Positions 2,940-62,324 of a DNA stretch of 64,000 bases are shown in pieces. Under the pieces are notes generated by a model that was not told where the DNA came from, did no database searches, and worked only from the letters and a program-made list of their open reading frames with translations. The translations under genes were made by a program, and so were the position numbers. Position 1 is the first letter of the stretch, and each line of letters opens with the position of its first letter. The stretch lies in assembly GCF_012027395.1 (NCBI RefSeq), contig NZ_SNUJ01000004.1:1-64000 (forward strand). Reading direction: 5' to 3'. This DNA is from Thermococcus sp. LS1. Its GTDB lineage: Archaea; Methanobacteriota_B; Thermococci; Thermococcales; Thermococcaceae.

Positions 2940-5900
2940 TCAGAGCACCCTGTAGAAGCCGGCCCTCGGCTCGTATATCCTTGCGTCCCTCTTGAGGTCG
3001 CTGATGAGCTTCTTTACCTCGTTCTCCGTTCCAATTCCAGCCTGCTTCGCCGCTTCCACGACCTTGTCCTCCGGTGCGCCGAACTCGCCCTCACTCTCAA
3101 GGCTCTTGATGATGTCTATGAGCTTGTCAATCTTGTTTATCTTCTTGGAACTCTTGCCGACCTCGAGGATCGAAACGTCCAGCGTTCCCTCCTCGTCGGT
3201 CGCTATCTTTCTTATCATCTCCTCGATTATCTGTATCGCCGCTCTGGCGTCTTCCCTCGTCACGGTCTCGCTCAGGCGCATTCTCGCGTGGGCCTCGCTG
3301 AGACGTATGAGTGCCTCCAGCTGCCTCGCAGTAATCGGAATCGGCTGCACTCCCTCGTCCTCACCGCTCTTTCTGAAGCCCTTCCTCATGCGGACGTAGT
3401 AGCGCTTTATCTCGTCCATCGCCTCTTTGCTCAAAACCGGGTGGATGTTCTTCCTCGCATAGGCTATATACTTCTTGAGCAGGTCGTAGGGTATCTTGGG
3501 CGTTACTGCCTCGGCCTCTCCCCTCCTGACCTTAAGTATGTGCTCGGCTATAGATGCGTCTATCTTCTCGTCCGGTTCGTCCAGCAGGAGGAATATAAGG
3601 TCGAAACGGCTCAGCAGAGTCGGCGGGAGGTCGAGCTGCTCCGGGAGGGACTTGTGGCGGTTAAACCTGCCGTACTTCGGATTGGCAGCAGCTATAACTG
3701 TCGTTCTGGCGTTAAGTGTCGCTGTGATGCCCGCTTTGGAGATGCTGATTGTCTGCTGCTCGAGTGCCTCATGTATGGCACTCCTATCCCTGTCGCTCAT
3801 CTTGTCGAACTCGTCAATTAGGGCAAATCCGCCATCTGCGAGAACTAGGACACCTGCTTCCAGAACCCACGAACCTGTAAATTCGTCGCGGACGGCTGCG
3901 GCCGTGTTGTGGATGATGAAGCCATTGGCGATGAAGCTGTGGGAGCCCTCGACTGTTAGGTCGTAGACGTATTTGTAGGGGCTTTCAATAACTTCAATGT
4001 TCCTAACCTTCTCCCACAGGACGTCTGAATGTGCAATCTCCTCGAGGATTGAGAGCTTCGCTCTGATACGCTCCTCCTTTCCGGAAATCTCGCTGAGGGT
4101 CCAAACAATTTCTCTGTAAGTCGTTTCATCCCTCTCTTTGATGATCTTTGCCACTTTTACAAGGAGGTCATACGGAAGTGCCCTTGACCGTTTTCTCCTA
4201 AAGAGCTCGTAGAACTCGGCATAGGTCATCCCAAGCTCTTCGGGTTTAATCAGGTGTCCAATGTTGAGCCTAAGTTTGTTCGGTAACTCTATGGGAATCT
4301 TCGAGATATCGGTTCTCTCCTTTAGTCTTTCAACGACCCTTTGAAGCGCTCTCCGTGATATCGGTTTTCCTCTCTCTACCGCGCTTCCGAAGTTTGAGCC
4401 GTAGGCTTCTTCTATGCTTAGCCCGTAGAATTCTCTGATTTCCTTTATCAACCCTCCCACTTCGGGGACAACATCTACGTTAGTGTCTGTTTTAGATTCT
4501 TGCAGCGCCTTCACGAGTTTTTCAAGTTTCTCTGCTTTTTCTGGATGCTCCAAACCTATAAACGCGGCGAACTTGATGATGTTCTCCCCGTAAACCTTCA
4601 GTTCCCAGCGGTCGTGTTTTGAAACTACCTGCGTTCCATTGATCTCTGAGATTGCACCTGCCCCTCTGCGCCTTCTCAAGTGCGAGACGATTCCGAAGCG
4701 GAGGAGGGCAAGCTGGAGCTTTTTGGCGAGTCTCTCGCTGGTAGTATCAAGCTCGATGTACGAGGAGCCCTTTTCGCGTACAACGACCGTTCCGTCGCAG
4801 TCGAAGAGCCCTCGTATAAATGCCGCGAGAACTTCTTCTGGAGCAACCATCAGCTGTGGGGCAATGTCGAGGTGTGATGACTTTGGGGAGGGAGGAATGC
4901 CGAGCTTTTCAAGAAGATGGGCAACTATCTTTGAGTGGAACCTTACGGCTGGCACACGGTTACTCTGTCTGCTTTCCTTTGCCTCAATGTCGAACAGTTC
5001 CTTGGCGAGCGACTTGAACTTCTTCCTCATGGATTCACTGCCGTTGGAGAACCTTATTGAAACTCCCCATCCAGACTTTGAAACATCTCCATCTCCGGCA
5101 ATGAGTCCGGCGAAGTAGGCGAGCCTTTCGTCCACGTACTTGGGGAGTTTGATTCCAGTTCCAGCCTGCAGGGACACGCATTCAGGCTCTATCTCTTCCC
5201 AACTGGCCTCGGAGAGTTCGATCAGCTCACGAAGATGCTTCATTCTGATGTTGCCCCTGGCGTTTTGGCTGACCCAGTTGTAGTACACCGCGTCCTCACT
5301 AACCCCGAGTCTTTTTGCGAGTTCCCTCTTGGTTACTCCGAGGTTTTTGCAGGCTCTCTCAATCAGTTCCCTGACTTTATCCTTGATTCCGCATATGACA
5401 AGCTCATCAAGGTCGCTCAGCAATTCGAGGACTGTAATACGCTTTTTGGGAACTTCTATTCTGCGGACGGTGGCAACGTACGTGTCCGGTTTGATGTCTT
5501 CCGCCTTAATCCACTTGAGGGTGCCTTTTTCAATGGTTCTGAGCTTTGTTTCTGGGGTTAAGATAAGCTCTTTGCCGGTTGTTGTCTTTACTTTGATGAG
5601 TCTCTCAGGTGCTTTCAGCCGCCATACTCTGCTCAATGGGGCCTGTTCGGTGCGTCCTTTTTCTATCGAAACAGTTTCTCCGAGGAACGGCGAATACTCA
5701 ATCCCCTCAGAGTATTCAATGCTCCCACTCTCGCGCATCCAGCACTCCGTGAGGAGACCAATCTCAAGGGCACCGTCGTCGGTTACTACTATCGAATCGG
5801 GCGCAACACAGAGACCCGCCGCCGATGAGCTCTTACCGCTCGTATAAATCGCTCTCGGTGCCAAATTAGCAACATAACGGAGAATTTGGCTGTTGTGGAC

Positions 5901-8318
5901 GAAGATGTCGTTGGCTATGAAGTTGTGGTGCTCCGGCACCTGGAGGTCGTAGACCCACGGATGCTCTGGCTTGTATTCTCTGACCTCGACGACTCTGTCC
6001 CAGAAGATATCGGAGTCCGCAAGCAGTTCAAGTACTTTGAGCTTTTTGGGGACATCAGGCGACTTCTCTTTCAGTGTTTCAACGACGATTTTGAGCTTTT
6101 CCCTGCTGGGCAGCCTATCCCCCCGTTCATAGTGCAGGTAAGTGGAGCGGTTTATTCCTAGGTCCTTTTGTCTTAGTCCCGCTGATTCACGGAGTTCTCT
6201 GAGCAGCTTCGAGACGCCCGGAACAACATCAACGTTGGTGTTCAGTTTTATCCCGTTGGTAACCTTTGCGAGGAGTTTTGCCTTCTCCTCAACTCCAAAG
6301 CCGATGGTCTCTCCGAACTTTATGACATCTTTGCCCGTTATGACCAGGCGGTAGTACGTTTTTGCCTCCTTCATCTTTCCGTTTGTGGCTATGCTTCTTG
6401 TCGCGTGCAGCTGTGATTTTATTCCAAACCTCAAAAGAAGGTGCCGGACACCTCTCAGGAGTTCCAGCGATGCTGAAACCACTGTGATTTTTGGTCTGGC
6501 TCTATCAACTGTCCCCTCTGCGTCAAAGTAACCCTGAAGGAACGCCTTGATGTCCTCCAACCTTGCGGAGAATATCTGGGATGGTACTTTTTTCTTTGAA
6601 GAGTTCTCCGCGATTCCAAGACGTTTAAACAATCTGAAGAACTCAACGCTGCTCACGTAAACCTCTTTCGCCGATTTACCTCTATGAGGCTTTCTAATCG
6701 TTGGGTTAAGGTCGAGCTTTCTGAAGTATTCGTAGACTTTTTGAATCAGCTTTTCGTCGTTGTTCGTAAAGAATATCGTAGCGCTACCGTTTCTGTTCTG
6801 TGCGTAGCCCTCTCCGGCCAGTAGGCCGATAACATACCAGAACTCCTCGTCCGCAAATTCAGGAAGCTTTAACCTGCTCTTGGCAGTTTTGGGCTTTTCT
6901 ATCTCAATGTCCCAAAGCCTAGTAGGTTTCCCAGCAATCGGAATGATGCGTGGAACTGCTATAAAGTCGCTCGCTTTTAGTTCCTCAGCCTTCCTTGTCT
7001 TGAACTGCCCATTCTCAAAGACAAAGAATGGATGAGTCGGTGTTACCCTTATCTCCCTTCCGCTCGCGGTCCTTATGAGGAACATTCTCTCGGGCGCGGT
7101 TCTCTTCCAGGCTATGTTAGCCTTCACCTTTTTCACTTTGAGCGTCTTGGCATCTAGAGCGTAAAGCTCAAGGTCTATTGGAGCGTAGAAGCCGTCGTCA
7201 ACCCTGCCGAGGGTTCCCTCTTTTTTGGCTCTCTTAATTGCCCCCTCCACAAGCTCACCTATCTCCCCTAAGCTCCCGTCGGCCAGAACAACCTGGGTGT
7301 CATAATCAACGCACTTCGCAACACCCGGGTCTCCAACCAGCAGAACGTGGCTCTCTCCCCTCAGCTTCGTTCCGTCAGGGAGAACCCGCTGCACGCCACC
7401 GAAGAGCGCCAAAGCTATGCCCTTCTTCACGGTCTTGTGTCCCCAGATTGCCGGGGCTATCGAATCGACAATAGCATCAACGATGTCCTTTCTCTTTGCC
7501 AGCTCCCTTATCTTCTGCTCGTCCTCAGGAGTAATCTCAAGCTCCTCTATCTCCTTACTGAGCTGCTCGATGTGGTTGACCTCGAGAACCTTCTTGAATA
7601 TCGGCCGCTTATCCTTCTGCTCGAGAATTACGCGAAGTATTCCCGTGACGAGAACCCTGTCGCCTGGCAGGGCGGTATCAACGAGGTCGTCGAGGAGGAT
7701 TGCATCGACAAACCTCGGCATCTGGCCACCCTTGAGGCTCTCGGGTCTGTCCTGGAGGCGGAAGCTCTGGAAGTTGATGAACCTGCTCTTCTCGACGTCG
7801 AGCTCAACGTTTCTTGACCCACAGGCGTCGCACTTGCTCGGCTTGACTATGTTGTCGTAGGGCCTCTGCAGTCTTACCATCTCGTTGCCGCAGTCCTTAC
7901 AGACAAAGACGGCCTTCTCAACGAATGGCTTGACCTCGCTCACGCGCGTGATGATTCCATCAACCTGTATGAGCCTGTTTATGTGCTCGCTGCCGAGTTC
8001 TTTAACGAGGAGCGTCCTTGGAAGGTTGAAAAACCTCGCGTGAACCTTAAACTCCTCCTCCTTCAAAAGGGGAGGCTCGCGGAGGACTATCTGGATGGCA
8101 TCCTCGGCAGCCAAAATGCTATCTTCGGGGTTTTTGAGAAGTTCTTCCGCCAATTCGGGGTCAAAGGAGTTGAGGTGGGTCCAGTCTATCGAGAGAGAGC
8201 GCCTTGGGGTAACCGTGAGCAGGTCTTTAAGCTTGTTCAGATAAACCTCATTGCCGTTGTCATCGACGTACTCACGCAGAAATCTCGCGTACCTCTCTAT
8301 CATGTCCTCCCTGTCCAT
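2940..8318 (-). CDS. mcm: Replicative helicase MCM with two inteins
   Basis: A 1792-residue reading frame that reduces to a 683-residue MCM once two inteins (residues 336-809 and 837-1471) are removed. The extein has the N-terminal zinc finger (C140, C143, C163, C166) and Walker A GDPGVAKS, which intein 1 splits between K and S. Walker B is ALIDEFDKM, followed by the arginine finger region LLSRFDLIF and a C-terminal winged helix. MCM is the hexameric DNA-unwinding motor of archaeal replication, activated by GINS. The gene abuts gins23 (TGATG overlap at 8316-8320) and precedes aIF2-beta. Both inteins lie in the ATPase core, so the helicase is inactive until both splice. Confidence 0.96.
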   Translation of the reverse strand: MDREDMIERYARFLREYVDDNGNEVYLNKLKDLLTVTPRRSLSIDWTHLNSFDPELAEELLKNPEDSILAAEDAIQIVLREPPLLKEEEFKVHARFFNLPRTLLVKELGSEHINRLIQVDGIITRVSEVKPFVEKAVFVCKDCGNEMVRLQRPYDNIVKPSKCDACGSRNVELDVEKSRFINFQSFRLQDRPESLKGGQMPRFVDAILLDDLVDTALPGDRVLVTGILRVILEQKDKRPIFKKVLEVNHIEQLSKEIEELEITPEDEQKIRELAKRKDIVDAIVDSIAPAIWGHKTVKKGIALALFGGVQRVLPDGTKLRGESHVLLVGDPGVAKCVDYDTQVVLADGSLGEIGELVEGAIKRAKKEGTLGRVDDGFYAPIDLELYALDAKTLKVKKVKANIAWKRTAPERMFLIRTASGREIRVTPTHPFFVFENGQFKTRKAEELKASDFIAVPRIIPIAGKPTRLWDIEIEKPKTAKSRLKLPEFADEEFWYVIGLLAGEGYAQNRNGSATIFFTNNDEKLIQKVYEYFRKLDLNPTIRKPHRGKSAKEVYVSSVEFFRLFKRLGIAENSSKKKVPSQIFSARLEDIKAFLQGYFDAEGTVDRARPKITVVSASLELLRGVRHLLLRFGIKSQLHATRSIATNGKMKEAKTYYRLVITGKDVIKFGETIGFGVEEKAKLLAKVTNGIKLNTNVDVVPGVSKLLRELRESAGLRQKDLGINRSTYLHYERGDRLPSREKLKIVVETLKEKSPDVPKKLKVLELLADSDIFWDRVVEVREYKPEHPWVYDLQVPEHHNFIANDIFVHNSQILRYVANLAPRAIYTSGKSSSAAGLCVAPDSIVVTDDGALEIGLLTECWMRESGSIEYSEGIEYSPFLGETVSIEKGRTEQAPLSRVWRLKAPERLIKVKTTTGKELILTPETKLRTIEKGTLKWIKAEDIKPDTYVATVRRIEVPKKRITVLELLSDLDELVICGIKDKVRELIERACKNLGVTKRELAKRLGVSEDAVYYNWVSQNARGNIRMKHLRELIELSEASWEEIEPECVSLQAGTGIKLPKYVDERLAYFAGLIAGDGDVSKSGWGVSIRFSNGSESMRKKFKSLAKELFDIEAKESRQSNRVPAVRFHSKIVAHLLEKLGIPPSPKSSHLDIAPQLMVAPEEVLAAFIRGLFDCDGTVVVREKGSSYIELDTTSERLAKKLQLALLRFGIVSHLRRRRGAGAISEINGTQVVSKHDRWELKVYGENIIKFAAFIGLEHPEKAEKLEKLVKALQESKTDTNVDVVPEVGGLIKEIREFYGLSIEEAYGSNFGSAVERGKPISRRALQRVVERLKERTDISKIPIELPNKLRLNIGHLIKPEELGMTYAEFYELFRRKRSRALPYDLLVKVAKIIKERDETTYREIVWTLSEISGKEERIRAKLSILEEIAHSDVLWEKVRNIEVIESPYKYVYDLTVEGSHSFIANGFIIHNTAAAVRDEFTGSWVLEAGVLVLADGGFALIDEFDKMSDRDRSAIHEALEQQTISISKAGITATLNARTTVIAAANPKYGRFNRHKSLPEQLDLPPTLLSRFDLIFLLLDEPDEKIDASIAEHILKVRRGEAEAVTPKIPYDLLKKYIAYARKNIHPVLSKEAMDEIKRYYVRMRKGFRKSGEDEGVQPIPITARQLEALIRLSEAHARMRLSETVTREDARAAIQIIEEMIRKIATDEEGTLDVSILEVGKSSKKINKIDKLIDIIKSLESEGEFGAPEDKVVEAAKQAGIGTENEVKKLISDLKRDARIYEPRAGFYRVL
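3906..5810 (-). other. MCM intein 2 (635 residues, LAGLIDADG endonuclease, block B His missing)
   Basis: The intein runs from C837 (CVAPDSIVV) to N1471 (SFIANGFIIHN), with Thr as the +1 extein residue. It interrupts the extein SSSAAGL/TAAAVRD. The penultimate His and terminal Asn are present. Block B reads LTPETKL where T-P-x-H is normally found, so the catalytic His is replaced by Thr next to a Lys. Two DOD endonuclease motifs (FAGLIAGDGDV and IRGLFDCDGTV) keep their acidic residues. Helix-turn-helix-like segments (KRELAKRLGVSEDAVY and one nearer the C-terminus) probably aid DNA recognition. Confidence 0.93.
5892..7313 (-). other. MCM intein 1 (474 residues, LAGLIDADG endonuclease)
   Basis: The intein runs from C336 (CVDYDTQVVLADGS) to N809 (HHNFIANDIFVHN), with Ser as the +1 extein residue. 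It sits inside the Walker A lysine-serine junction of MCM (GDPGVAK/SQ). Block B is canonical (RVTPTHPFFV). The two endonuclease motifs are VIGLLAGEGYA and LQGYFDAEGTV, with Glu at the metal-binding position in both, which is compatible with activity. A helix-turn-helix segment (LRQKDLGINRSTYLHYERG) lies between the endonuclease and the C-terminal splicing blocks. Confidence 0.95.
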
Positions 8319-8920: not shown

Positions 8921-9433
8921 ATGCTGATAGGGATAATGAGCGACACCCACGATAACCTTCCGGCGGTAAGGAAGGCTGTGGAGTTCTTCAACGAGCAGAA
9001 CGTCGAGCTGGTGATTCACGCTGGCGACTACGTGGCGCCGTTCGTGGCGAGGGAGCTCAAGAAGCTCAAAGCCCCTCTTAAGGGAGTCTTCGGAAACAAC
9101 GATGGCGAGAAAAAGGGCCTCCACGAAGTGCTGGGAATAGCCGACGAGATACCTGAAATCGAGGCTGATGGTATGAAAATAGCGGTCACCCACGGTACGG
9201 ACGAGAGGATAGTGAGGGCCCTGGCGAGGAGCAGGCTCTACGACGTTGTAGTCGTTGGCCACACGCACCGCTATGAGATCAGGGAGGATGGCAGGACGAT
9301 ACTGATAAATCCCGGTGAGGTCTGCGGTTACATTACCGGCATTAAGAGCGTTGCACTGCTGGACACGAGGAAGAGGGAAGTCAGAATAGTGAACATTGAA
9401 ACGGGTGAACTGCTCGGGGTCATGAGTCTCTAG
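8921..9433 (+). CDS. YfcE/MJ0936-type metallophosphoesterase
   Basis: A 170-residue calcineurin-like phosphodiesterase with all metal-binding motifs intact. These are D8-x-H10 (IMSDTHDN), HAGDYV, GNNDG, VTHG and GHTHR. The family hydrolyses phosphodiesters with two Mn or Ni ions; the physiological substrate is not known. A GGTGGGAGC ribosome site precedes the ATG at 8921, and a weak TATA (GGCTATAAGC, about 8879-8888) lies upstream. It is divergent from gins23. Compare the catalytically stripped relative at 61078-61833. Confidence 0.88.
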   Translation: MLIGIMSDTHDNLPAVRKAVEFFNEQNVELVIHAGDYVAPFVARELKKLKAPLKGVFGNNDGEKKGLHEVLGIADEIPEIEADGMKIAVTHGTDERIVRALARSRLYDVVVVGHTHRYEIREDGRTILINPGEVCGYITGIKSVALLDTRKREVRIVNIETGELLGVMSL

Positions 9434-22486: not shown

Positions 22487-23389
22487 TCAAATAACCGCCG
22501 GAACCCCCGGGATTCTCGGGAAGGGCTGAACCTCCGCTATGTGCTCAGCCCCGACCATGTACCTGATGAGCCTCTCGATGCCTATGCCCGCTCCAGCGCT
22601 CGGCCTCAGGAGGCCCGCTTTGGCGACCTCGAGGTAGGGTCTGAAGGCGTCGAGGCTTATGCCTGCCTTCTTCATTTTTCTGACTATTACCTCGTACTCC
22701 CACTCCCTCTCGCCACCGCTGGAAACCTCTCCGTAGCCCTCCGGTAGGTAGAGGTCGTAGTTCCTGAAGTGGCCGGGCCTTTCGGGGTCCTCCCTGTCGT
22801 AGAACTCCCTCTCAATGTCCGTCACCCAGAAGGGCTCGTCCATGGCCTTACTGGCCTCGTCCTCGCTTCCAAACTCGGCCTTAATCTCCTCAAGGGTGAA
22901 GCGCTTGAAGGGCGGCCTTACCTTGGGTACTTCCCTCTCCAGTCCCCAGCTCCTAGCTTCCTTGAACAATCCGCTTATCAGCTCCTCTATGAGGCTCATG
23001 ACGTCGTCCATGCTCGCGTAGGCTATCTCGAAGTCAAGCTGCGTAAACTCGTAGGCGTGTCTGCCATCGTCGGCGCTTCTCCCTTCGAGCCTTATGTTCG
23101 GCGAGAGTATGAAGAGCCTGTCAATTCCCATAGCTACCGCCATCTGCTTGTGGAGTATCATGCTGTGGGTCAGCCTCAGCCTCTCGCCGTAGACCTCGAC
23201 TTCTGGCGGCTTTAGGGCCTCGCTAGCAGCAGGGTCTGGCCAGAGGGGATCGGTTATGGAGCTGAGCATCACCGGGAGCATCCACTTGAAGCCCTTGCCT
23301 ACCATGTATCTTGTCATATAGTCAATTACTCTCGTCTGGACTTCTATAACTGGTTCAATTTTTCGGGTCACAATTTGGAGAGCGTTCAT
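22487..23389 (-). CDS. Archaeal asparagine synthetase A-like (AsnRS/AspRS-derived)
   Basis: A 300-residue class II aminoacyl-tRNA synthetase catalytic core with no anticodon-binding domain. Motif 2 is at FILSPNIRLE...YEFTQLDFEIA and motif 3 at GAGIGIERLIRYM. Free-standing cores of this kind in Pyrococcus are asparagine synthetases (AS-AR) that make Asn from Asp, ammonia and ATP. The ATG at 23389 is placed after AGGTGATGAAA. An ATG at 23395 and a GTG at 23398 are alternatives. It is convergent with the Stn-like operon and divergent from the P-loop gene. Confidence 0.85.
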   Translation of the reverse strand: MNALQIVTRKIEPVIEVQTRVIDYMTRYMVGKGFKWMLPVMLSSITDPLWPDPAASEALKPPEVEVYGERLRLTHSMILHKQMAVAMGIDRLFILSPNIRLEGRSADDGRHAYEFTQLDFEIAYASMDDVMSLIEELISGLFKEARSWGLEREVPKVRPPFKRFTLEEIKAEFGSEDEASKAMDEPFWVTDIEREFYDREDPERPGHFRNYDLYLPEGYGEVSSGGEREWEYEVIVRKMKKAGISLDAFRPYLEVAKAGLLRPSAGAGIGIERLIRYMVGAEHIAEVQPFPRIPGVPAVI

Positions 23390-59783: not shown

Positions 59784-61106
59784 ATGAGCTATGAGCGCCG
59801 CGTTCTCCTGAGACATTCACTGGCGTCGATAATTGCCCTGGGACTGACGGGAATCAGCAGATTTCTCTACAGTGTAATCGTCTCCAGGAGATTTGGTGTT
59901 GAAGAGCTCGGTCGGGCAAACTCCCTGATTTCGCAGGCCTTCTTTCTGGCGATTCCCCTGAGCTTCTTTGCGGTTGCCCTCGGGAAGTATGCATCGGAGT
60001 TCCTTGGAAGTAACAGAGAGGAGGCCATTCGTTCAATCACGCTTCCCTCTTTTCTTCTTCCGTTGGCTGGTCTTCTGTTGCTTCCGTTTAACGTTTACCT
60101 CTCCCTTCTGGCGGTCTTTAGAGGGGTACAGCTTACTCTAAGGAACTTCCTCTATGGCATCCACCGCGGTGAGCACTACGCCTATTTAATAACACTCGCC
60201 TTTTTGGGCTTCATGACAGGCTTTTTGGTTCATGATGTCTTTGCTCCCTACTTGCTCTTTCTTGGGCTTATCTCCGCTTTTGCCCTTGTCTACTTGGTGA
60301 AATTTAACCTCCTAGGAAGGCCCAGAAAGCGTGAACTTAAGCTTCTCCTATCCTACTCGTCCTTTGCATTCCTCGGCACGCTTTCGGGCGTGTTTCTCAT
60401 TCAGGGACCTTACTTCATGAGCGAATACCTGGCAGGGGCTGAAGTGGCGGGAAAAGTCTCTGCGGTTCTCTCGGCTGCATTCCTGCTCACTTACCTTCCC
60501 CAGGTGCTTCAGTCTGCGATAATGCCTCTCTTTTCCTATAAGTATGGAAGGAATGAGAATGAGTATGTCAGGCTTCTCGCCGAGAAGACAACGAGGCTTT
60601 TAATTCTAGCAACCGGCTCGGCAATATTTGCTCTCATGCTCCTTGGTAGGGAGGTTCTCTCCTTCTTTTTCAGCTTTGATGTAGGCCCGGCTTTTTACCT
60701 TGCCCTGATGGCGATGGAGGTTTACATTTCTTACAACCCGAGCATAGTTGCTCTCAACTCGACGGCCTACGTGAGAAATGGGACGATTGTTGCACTCCTT
60801 GGTGGTGTTACTTCCCTCCTCTCGTGGCTTTATCTGATACCTCTCTTCGGTTCGATCGGCGTTATGCTCGGCCTTCTCCTGGGGTACTGGGTTATACTCA
60901 TTGGCTCTGCCCACTACTCCCACAAACTGCTCGGAATTTCTTGGGGGATATACAGCCCCCTCATCGTTGCCCTTGCCCTCCAGTTGCTGATCTTCCTGTC
61001 AAAAACGGTATTCCTAATTGGATTCCTCACTTTCTTAGCCTATGAAAGAAAAGATGTTAAAGAGGCCCTGAATCTGCTTAAATCTTTCCGTGGTAGAGAA
61101 TCCTGA
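59784..61106 (+). CDS. Polysaccharide/lipid-linked oligosaccharide flippase (Wzx/MATE-like)
   Basis: A 440-residue membrane protein with about 12-14 helices. It starts with the typical SLASIIALGLTGISRFLYSV followed by SRRFGVEELGRANSLISQAF. This is the signature region of the polysaccharide biosynthesis (RfbX) family, which flips lipid-linked glycans for the cell surface. No glycosyltransferase is adjacent. Its last 29 bp overlap the convergent phosphoesterase-like gene. Confidence 0.88.
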   Translation: MSYERRVLLRHSLASIIALGLTGISRFLYSVIVSRRFGVEELGRANSLISQAFFLAIPLSFFAVALGKYASEFLGSNREEAIRSITLPSFLLPLAGLLLLPFNVYLSLLAVFRGVQLTLRNFLYGIHRGEHYAYLITLAFLGFMTGFLVHDVFAPYLLFLGLISAFALVYLVKFNLLGRPRKRELKLLLSYSSFAFLGTLSGVFLIQGPYFMSEYLAGAEVAGKVSAVLSAAFLLTYLPQVLQSAIMPLFSYKYGRNENEYVRLLAEKTTRLLILATGSAIFALMLLGREVLSFFFSFDVGPAFYLALMAMEVYISYNPSIVALNSTAYVRNGTIVALLGGVTSLLSWLYLIPLFGSIGVMLGLLLGYWVILIGSAHYSHKLLGISWGIYSPLIVALALQLLIFLSKTVFLIGFLTFLAYERKDVKEALNLLKSFRGRES

Positions 61107-61833
61107 TGAGCTCCTCTGGGAGGCCTTCCTTCTTTATCCTCTCCTCAATGAGCTTCTTATCATAGTCTACCTCTATGAATTTGGTGTGAAGTGTATCGAC
61201 GTCAACAAGGGCGAAAGTTGCCTTGTGCTCCTTTCCCGGTGGGAAGCCCACGCTCCCTGGGCAGACGACTCTGCCGTATCTTGTCATGGCATTCACTGGG
61301 TACTTTGGTGAGGCAACAAGGAGTATCTCGTAGTCCTTGACGGGCCTCATTATGGATTCATAATAGCTCGTCGGCTGGTCTGGAAGAACTACCCCTTCGA
61401 ACGGGTTCAGGGGACTTCCATAGACTCCGAAGACGTCGTTCTTGCCGATCCTGTCCACAAGGTATATCGGCAGGTCGCGGATGAACTCCCTTCCCTCGTG
61501 ACCGAGTACCTCCCATGTGTGCTTGAGGGCCGCTTTTATGTGAGCGGGGATATCAAGCCTATCGATGTAGTCCGGCCCTTCCGCGTGGGAATCGCTCGCC
61601 GCTATTATCTGGTCGAACTCGCCGCGGATGACCTTGACGGTGTCCTTCTTTATGAGGTCATCTAGAGTGTCAAGGACTTCCCTTGGATACGGGAAGAGTC
61701 CAATGATGTTTCCGAGGATGTAGTACTTCTCAATCTCATACCCTTCCTCTTTAAGCTCTTCAATCCTCTCAAGAGCCTTGGCAAGTGCTGGAAGGTTGCC
61801 ATTGATGTTTGCCAGAACAGCCACGTAGACCAT
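61078..61833 (-). CDS. Metallophosphoesterase-fold protein with lost metal ligands
   Basis: A 251-residue protein aligned end to end with YfcE/YmdB-like phosphoesterases, but with every visible metal-ligand motif changed. S-D-x-H is A-N9-I-N11 (VAVLANINGNLPAL), GD is GN42 (ILGNIIGLFPYP) and GNHD is G71-E-F-D. The GHTH region is ASPK (LLVASPKYP) and the VHGSP His is Tyr (VYGSPLNP). The structural PGSVGFPPG is kept. It is probably a non-catalytic binding or regulatory protein. The ATG at 61833 after GGAGGTGGTGACC is preferred to an upstream start at 61848. Confidence 0.85.
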   Translation of the reverse strand: MVYVAVLANINGNLPALAKALERIEELKEEGYEIEKYYILGNIIGLFPYPREVLDTLDDLIKKDTVKVIRGEFDQIIAASDSHAEGPDYIDRLDIPAHIKAALKHTWEVLGHEGREFIRDLPIYLVDRIGKNDVFGVYGSPLNPFEGVVLPDQPTSYYESIMRPVKDYEILLVASPKYPVNAMTRYGRVVCPGSVGFPPGKEHKATFALVDVDTLHTKFIEVDYDKKLIEERIKKEGLPEELIRILYHGKI

Positions 61834-61907
61834 GGTCACCACCTCCAACTTTTTTCTTACTCGAATTAACTAAAAATCAGGAAAATATTTAAAGGTTTCG
61901 GAAGGGT

Positions 61908-61991
61908 TCAGAGGAGGAAGCGCTTTTTCTTCTTACGTCTTCTCTCAGCGTTTATACTTGCTATGTAAAGCAGGAGGACGTCCTCCACCAT
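61908..61991 (-). CDS. 27-residue basic small protein
   Basis: A short gene with a strong ribosome site GGAGGTGAGAGC before the ATG at 61991. It encodes MVEDVLLLYIASINAERRRK followed by KKKRFLL. A hydrophobic N-half is followed by a cluster of nine Arg/Lys residues, so it may associate with membrane or RNA. No relative is recognised. It lies about 75 bp upstream of the phosphoesterase-like gene on the same strand. Confidence 0.5.
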   Translation of the reverse strand: MVEDVLLLYIASINAERRRKKKKRFLL

Positions 61992-62246: not shown

Positions 62247-62324
62247 TGGCGGACCGGCGGGGATTTGAACCCCGGACCTGCGGCTTAGGAGGCCGCCGCC
62301 CTATCCTAGCTAGGCTACCGGTCC
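62247..62324 (-). tRNA. tRNA-Arg (CCU)
   Basis: A 78-nt tRNA with acceptor GGACCGG/CCGGTCC, anticodon stem GCGGC/GCCGC with loop CTCCTAA (anticodon CCT), T arm CGGGG-TTCAAAT-CCCCG, and encoded CCA. Its promoter is the palindromic TTTAAA at 62356-62361. Confidence 0.95.

Follow-up and report, generated by a model that had tools for sequence, protein, structure and literature searches.

A metallophosphoesterase-like protein of Thermococcus without its metal ligands, apparently maintained by selection behind a promoter with a Phr-type operator

The DNA analysed here, referred to as the window, is a stretch of 64,000 nucleotides from Thermococcus sp. LS1 which carries, on the minus strand at 61078-61833, an intact open reading frame for a protein of 251 amino acids that we call the pseudo-phosphoesterase. 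The frame opens with an ATG at 61833, closes with a stop codon at 61078-61080, contains no internal stop and has an alternative upstream TTG at 61848. Ahead of it, on the same strand, lie a Shine-Dalgarno-like GGAGGTG (61840-61846), a 24-bp Phr-type operator, TTTTAGTTAATTCGAGTAAGAAAA (61852-61875), at the expected transcription start, and a TATA-box-like TTTAAATA (61886-61893); the first and the last of these were read in the sequence, and G-rich stretches similar to the first occur upstream of the orthologs. A second, very short open reading frame, coding for a putative 27-aa microprotein (61908-61991, minus strand), lies 74 nt ahead of the pseudo-phosphoesterase ATG, and a tRNA-Arg(CCT) gene (62247-62324, minus strand) separates it from the gene of an Lrp-type regulator. 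Elsewhere in the window, an MCM-like reading frame of 1792 aa (2940-8318, minus strand) appears, by eye from its translation, to hold two inteins.

On the other side, a convergent flippase gene (59784-61106) adjoins the pseudo-phosphoesterase gene in 35 of the 48 compared loci. The 3' ends of the two genes overlap by 29 bases in the window (61078-61106), and the convergent pairing recurs in other genera, not always with an overlap. A functional link between them was considered and rejected because the presence of the two genes does not track: the flippase was not found in several genomes bearing the pseudo-phosphoesterase gene (e.g. G005, G007, G008 and G012), and it was found without that gene in several others (G004, G011, G023, G027 and G047).

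The initial annotation had described the product as a metallophosphoesterase fold in which all the metal-binding motifs were altered. Compared with its nearest intact relative, the protein reads NIN for DIH, GN for GD, GEFD for GNHD, YG for HG and ASPK for GHTH, while the PGSVG loop is unchanged; the last D of GEFD corresponds to a retained residue of GNHD that is not a ligand. These motif assignments follow the general motifs of the superfamily, positioned through the alignment with the paralogs. In an alignment of 63 distinct full-length ortholog sequences (out of 76 retrieved rows) and 8 intact paralogs, the canonical residue occupies none of the 504 ortholog cells at the eight ligand or proton-donor positions, versus all 64 paralog cells, i.e. 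the ligand positions are replaced in 63/63 orthologs and intact in 8/8 paralogs. The two-metal ligand motifs D-x-H, GD, GNH(D), H and GH-x-H of calcineurin-like enzymes (PF00149, PF12850) are thus absent from all 63 orthologs, and orthologs with normal motifs, which would have contradicted the initial description, do not occur among the 63 sequences. The intact frame and the preserved PGSVG loop, read in the translation, bear out that description as well. Whether the altered residues are also fixed depends on the position: the replacements at 9 (N), 42 (N), 138 (Y) and 175 (S) are invariant, as is the retained D at 74, but positions 11 (N/A), 72 (E/K/Q/R), 73 (F/Y/L) and 177 (K/R) vary. Judged from these alignments, every predicted metal ligand has been replaced, several of the replacements being fixed.

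Such a protein appears to be a maintained pseudoenzyme and not a relic. The median dN/dS is 0.071 (5-95%: 0.026-0.144) over the 324 usable of 1953 ortholog pairs, 73 of the 251 positions are invariant in the 63 orthologs, and both values indicate strong purifying selection. Within six segments picked by the analyst around the former motifs, 28 of 55 positions are invariant, compared with 45 of 196 in the rest of the protein (Fisher p 1.6e-4). That the protein is kept by selection in a non-catalytic role, as had been proposed, is therefore well supported by the fixed replacements, the low dN/dS and the higher conservation of the former motif segments. On these grounds the old pocket probably retains a use, though not in two-metal hydrolysis. 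Its presumed former active-site residues N9, N13, N42, R70, D74, Y138 and S175 are invariant in the 63 orthologs, position 177 being K or R.

Profile searches place the protein just outside the recognized families. Against PF00149 (Metallophos) it scores 19.5 bits, under the cut-off of 21.5, no family of Pfam or NCBIfam was matched at E<=0.001, and the PHROGs search gave no match; all 16 members of its alignment (A1) nevertheless match PF00149 at E<=1, the best E of 4.9e-05 belonging to an ortholog. Descent from the calcineurin-like superfamily is indicated by a significant alignment to intact members along most of its length. The nearest of these that was found is a 235-aa paralog encoded elsewhere in the genome of the window (G000:C3:51828-52535), with 28% identity in the search and 26% in the alignment (E 1.3e-15 from the window query), which also matches 1NNW and 2GJU, the two PDB entries recovered with the window protein, at E 1.2e-16 and 5.2e-16. 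The nearest solved relative of this paralog is 3RQZ, and a further one (E 2.1e-11) is 3QFM, presumably the streptococcal asymmetric Ap4A hydrolase SapH/Spr1479. The catalytically intact relative indicated earlier for comparison, at 8921-9433 of the window, is indeed a YfcE-type phosphodiesterase (170 aa, TIGR00040) with its motifs in place, but the 235-aa paralog is the closer one.

The two PDB entries match residues 1-249 of the window protein at E 2.1e-134 (1NNW) and 7.5e-131 (2GJU), and both are labelled hypothetical. We take them to be chains from P. furiosus and P. horikoshii, respectively, and their high similarity over the whole length, together with the same altered motifs, places them in the ortholog group. 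The protein is thus already known through two solved ortholog structures, and its regulation is the new part. A literature search by PDB identifiers and locus names found no functional study of the 1NNW or 2GJU orthologs, nor a paper on an archaeal metallophosphoesterase pseudoenzyme with lost metal ligands. One article includes 1NNW among the structures that it examined for knotting at an interface, with no function given (PMC5209716). Our own structure prediction, from 16 sequences, reached a pLDDT of 40, too low to read a fold.

The distribution of the dead form was surveyed in 115 genomes of the class, 94 of them in a family (f1) inferred to be Thermococcaceae. Orthologs with at least 60% identity occur in 73 of these 94 genomes, 69 of them at full length, three split over two frames and one cut short (G039). 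No ortholog was found in the remaining 21 genomes of the family, at least six of which are less than 83% complete, nor in any of the 21 class genomes outside the family. The gene is dispensable, since 21 of the 94 genomes are without a detected ortholog and three carry a split one. The split copies (G003, G057 and G110; L081, L080 and L079) consist of overlapping frames in assemblies that are 99-100% complete, and reflect either recent decay or sequencing error. A search of contigs with the single protein, reaching close relatives only, recovered 16 loci, assigned to Thermococcus (13), Thermococcaceae (2) and Thermococcales (1). The 235-aa intact paralog or its dead relative was matched at E<=1e-10 in 101 of the 115 genomes. 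For six of these (G038, G042, G044, G051, G102 and G106) the best E shows a match to the dead relative alone, leaving 95 genomes with the intact paralog, some of them in families f2 and f3, where no dead form was found. A tree was built from 33 rows; its 16 dead sequences form one side of a branch of 2.08 changes per column with support of 100/99, and all 17 rows outside this group keep the motifs. Because the tree was flagged for long branches, it gives no firm answer as to the closest intact group.

Ortholog upstream regions share a layout in which TTTAAATA, or a similar box, is followed by TTTTAGT-N8-GTNANNAAA and then by a ribosome-binding site. Wherever an operator is present (64 upstreams), the centre of the TATA-like element lies 20-28 nt ahead of its GTNA core. 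The window site matches the pattern TTTTAGTN8GTNANNAAA without mismatch; among 65 distinct ortholog upstreams 60 do so, four have one mismatch, and the pattern is absent in one (L086), versus at least four mismatches in 8/8 paralog upstreams. This pattern was derived from these same promoters, and was widened after viewing sites in G000, the genome of the window. A separate matrix was therefore built from five sites of hsp20 and AAA+ genes alone, with 6500 dinucleotide shuffles as background. Its median score on the 65 ortholog upstreams is 18.2; 46 of them exceed the 99.9% point (14.8), 15 exceed the shuffle maximum (19.5), and 19 fall under the 99.9% point, while the eight paralogs score at most 0.0 and six other promoters of the window at most 1.6. 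The operator of the window scores 16.5, the top value in the 64 kb, the next (10.8) being the same place read on the other strand. Once up to three mismatches are allowed, the window holds no fewer matches to the first pattern than shuffles would give (2 vs 1.36 expected), and only the exact match is informative.

At genome scale, the widened pattern at up to one mismatch was found 12 times in G000, versus 3 for the reversed control. Six of the G000 sites are exact, one belonging to hsp20 and one to the pseudo-phosphoesterase gene. The exact pattern occurs 23 times in seven further genomes, versus 2 for the reversed control: six sites stand at the pseudo-phosphoesterase gene, four belong to CDC48-like AAA+ genes (with a palindromic site counted once per strand), two are at hsp20, a third faces away from it, five are divergent from a CBS-like gene, one precedes an MTA-phosphorylase-like gene and one a ferritin-like gene, and three have no evident gene. 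Several exact or near sites, in G000 as in the further genomes, likewise have no evident gene behind them, and one genome (G012) has no exact site, its operator copy carrying one mismatch. Gene identities rest on Pfam for hsp20 of G000, the AAA+ gene of G085 and the ferritin-like protein, and were assigned by eye for the others. As separate observations, an exact site of G000 (C2:146609-146632, L098) is divergent from the gene of a 392-397-aa CBS-domain-like protein (by eye), an arrangement that recurs in five other genomes (L132, L121, L134, L129 and L136), and the ferritin-like gene (PF00210) is immediately preceded by its site at G108:C1:1331734-1331757 (L142).

The genome of the window also encodes, at about position 23189 of G000:C1, an ArsR-type protein that matches PDB 2P4W, which we take to be Phr, at E 8.4e-74. 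Two reports describe a Phr consensus with TTTA at -10, TGGTAA over the start site and AAAA at +10 (PMC9133787; PMC6316755). The sites of the pseudo-phosphoesterase gene agree with these elements in order and spacing, the copy of the window having GAGTAA as the core instead of TGGTAA. The promoter can be said, by its sequence, to carry a Phr-type operator, and we infer control of the gene by Phr because the sites match the published description and the genome also codes for a Phr homolog. According to a heat-shock study of 2023, every known Phr target went up apart from PF1292, and PF1291 is not named there (PMC10746257). If 1NNW is PF1291, as is probable, PF1292 would be its neighbour. The pseudo-phosphoesterase gene may already be on the two published lists of Phr targets. 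One speculative idea, which depends on this numbering, is that PF1292 did not rise because its signal on older arrays was an antisense one from the convergent pseudo-phosphoesterase gene.

The microprotein frame has a good ribosome-binding site and a conserved M[IV]ED, after which come a hydrophobic stretch and a tail rich in lysine. Homologs were detected with this short query (E<=0.01) in 29 of the 115 genomes of the class, and 29/29 precede the pseudo-phosphoesterase gene on its own strand, in one case at a distance of about 1 kb. When 66 upstreams were scanned with a regular expression, 31 contained it; genus g3, taken to be Pyrococcus, contributed none of these. The two genes need not be co-transcribed, since the operator promoter sits between them, and the predicted frame is best regarded as a possible companion of the pseudo-phosphoesterase.

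The explanation that we prefer, with moderate confidence, is that of a non-hydrolysing binding protein, derepressed by heat stress from a Phr-repressed promoter, whose remodelled pocket holds a ligand or a partner. As the metal ligands are lost, the protein is preserved and the switch looks to be of heat-shock type, it works probably by binding, not by cutting. During normal growth Phr, bound on the transcription start, would hold the gene low; under heat stress the gene would be derepressed alongside hsp20 and the CDC48-like AAA+ ATPase; and the product would then act without hydrolysis, the pocket of the former active site holding its ligand or partner. The simplest ligand would be a small phosphorylated compound similar to those bound by the phosphodiesterase relatives. 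This step from a conserved pocket to a phospho-ligand is the weakest one. By analogy with the superfamily, N9, N13, N42, R70, D74, Y138, S175 and residue 177 would line a single pocket; reading it as anion-binding is weakened because positions 11, 72, 73 and 177 vary and 1NNW has Met at 177. Nucleotide sensing, the particular role offered in the initial annotation, is possible but unsupported, the pointers to it being ApaH/YfcE-like kinship and the heat-shock-type promoter. Its fullest version, a heat-shock module in which a dead relative of an Ap4A-hydrolase-like enzyme senses a stress nucleotide uncut and signals via, or together with, the linked 27-aa microprotein (its head acidic and hydrophobic, its tail lysine-rich), strikes us as very unlikely.

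Different scenarios might nonetheless account for the preserved protein. The former catalytic face could be an interaction surface, making the product a protein-protein scaffold whose heat-shock promoter would suggest a partner in protein quality control; the linked microprotein might be another. Aromatic residues that never vary (F47, Y49, W107, Y157, Y158 and Y186), an insertion at residues 85-94 that is absent from the eight paralogs and largely conserved up to residue 91, and the linkage of every detected microprotein homolog to the gene all speak for this tentative possibility, but the microprotein was found in no g3 upstream and in fewer than half of the upstreams scanned. It is quite unlikely that the protein is a new catalyst, metal-independent or differently metallated: H112, R115, E116, D127 and D74 are invariant in the 63 orthologs and could serve as catalytic residues, but no new cluster of metal ligands is evident from the sequence, and to our knowledge such a catalyst has no precedent in the calcineurin-like superfamily. 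That the gene is a decaying pseudogene, open by chance in this genome, would fit the 21 genomes without an ortholog and the three with a split one; it is hardly credible in view of the median dN/dS, the 73 invariant positions and the identical replacements fixed at four positions.

A further scenario concerns the promoter and not the protein. The operator-like sequence could serve another regulator that shares AT-rich half sites, the gene then not being heat-regulated. Pseudo-phosphoesterase sites mostly end in GTAAGAAAA or GTTAGAAAA, those of hsp20 and AAA+ genes in GTAACCAAA, GTAACTAAA, GTAAAGAAA or GTAAAAAAA, and 19 of the 65 upstreams stay under the 99.9% point of the hsp20/AAA+ matrix. 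Yet the half sites, their spacing and their placement between TATA box and start codon are identical to those of the hsp20 and AAA+ sites, whose matrix recognises the other 46 upstreams, and we consider this scenario unlikely. A Phr-repressed binding protein remains our preferred reading. The operator of heat-shock type, conserved as it is, suggests under which condition one might seek the function of two solved orthologs for which none has been found, and the occurrence of the dead protein and its intact paralog in one cell offers a convenient pair for probing the purpose of a dead phosphoesterase pocket.

Among known proteins, 1NNW and 2GJU share with the window protein the pattern N-I-x, GN, RGxxD, YGSP, ASPxY and PGSxG, but both have Ala instead of Asn at position 11, and at position 177 Met in 1NNW, which is outside the 63 aligned orthologs, and Arg in 2GJU stand against Lys in the window protein. 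The 235-aa paralog has the same order of motifs and a similar length; unlike the pseudo-phosphoesterase, it keeps its ligands, shows no Phr-type operator in the 8 upstreams and ranges more widely, into two other families of the class. The YfcE-type phosphodiesterase of the window shares the superfamily and differs in its intact motifs. In Vps29 and the B-subunits of eukaryotic DNA polymerases, a former catalytic face has turned into an interaction surface. Vps29 and other non-catalytic calcineurin-like proteins have likewise lost their metal ligands, in a fold that is presumably related; they are eukaryotic scaffolds, unlike the archaeal pseudo-phosphoesterase. With respect to the Phr regulon, the product stands apart, as it is not a chaperone, a protease or a known solute enzyme, whereas its gene resembles those of hsp20 and the AAA+ ATPase in the sequence, spacing and place of the operator.
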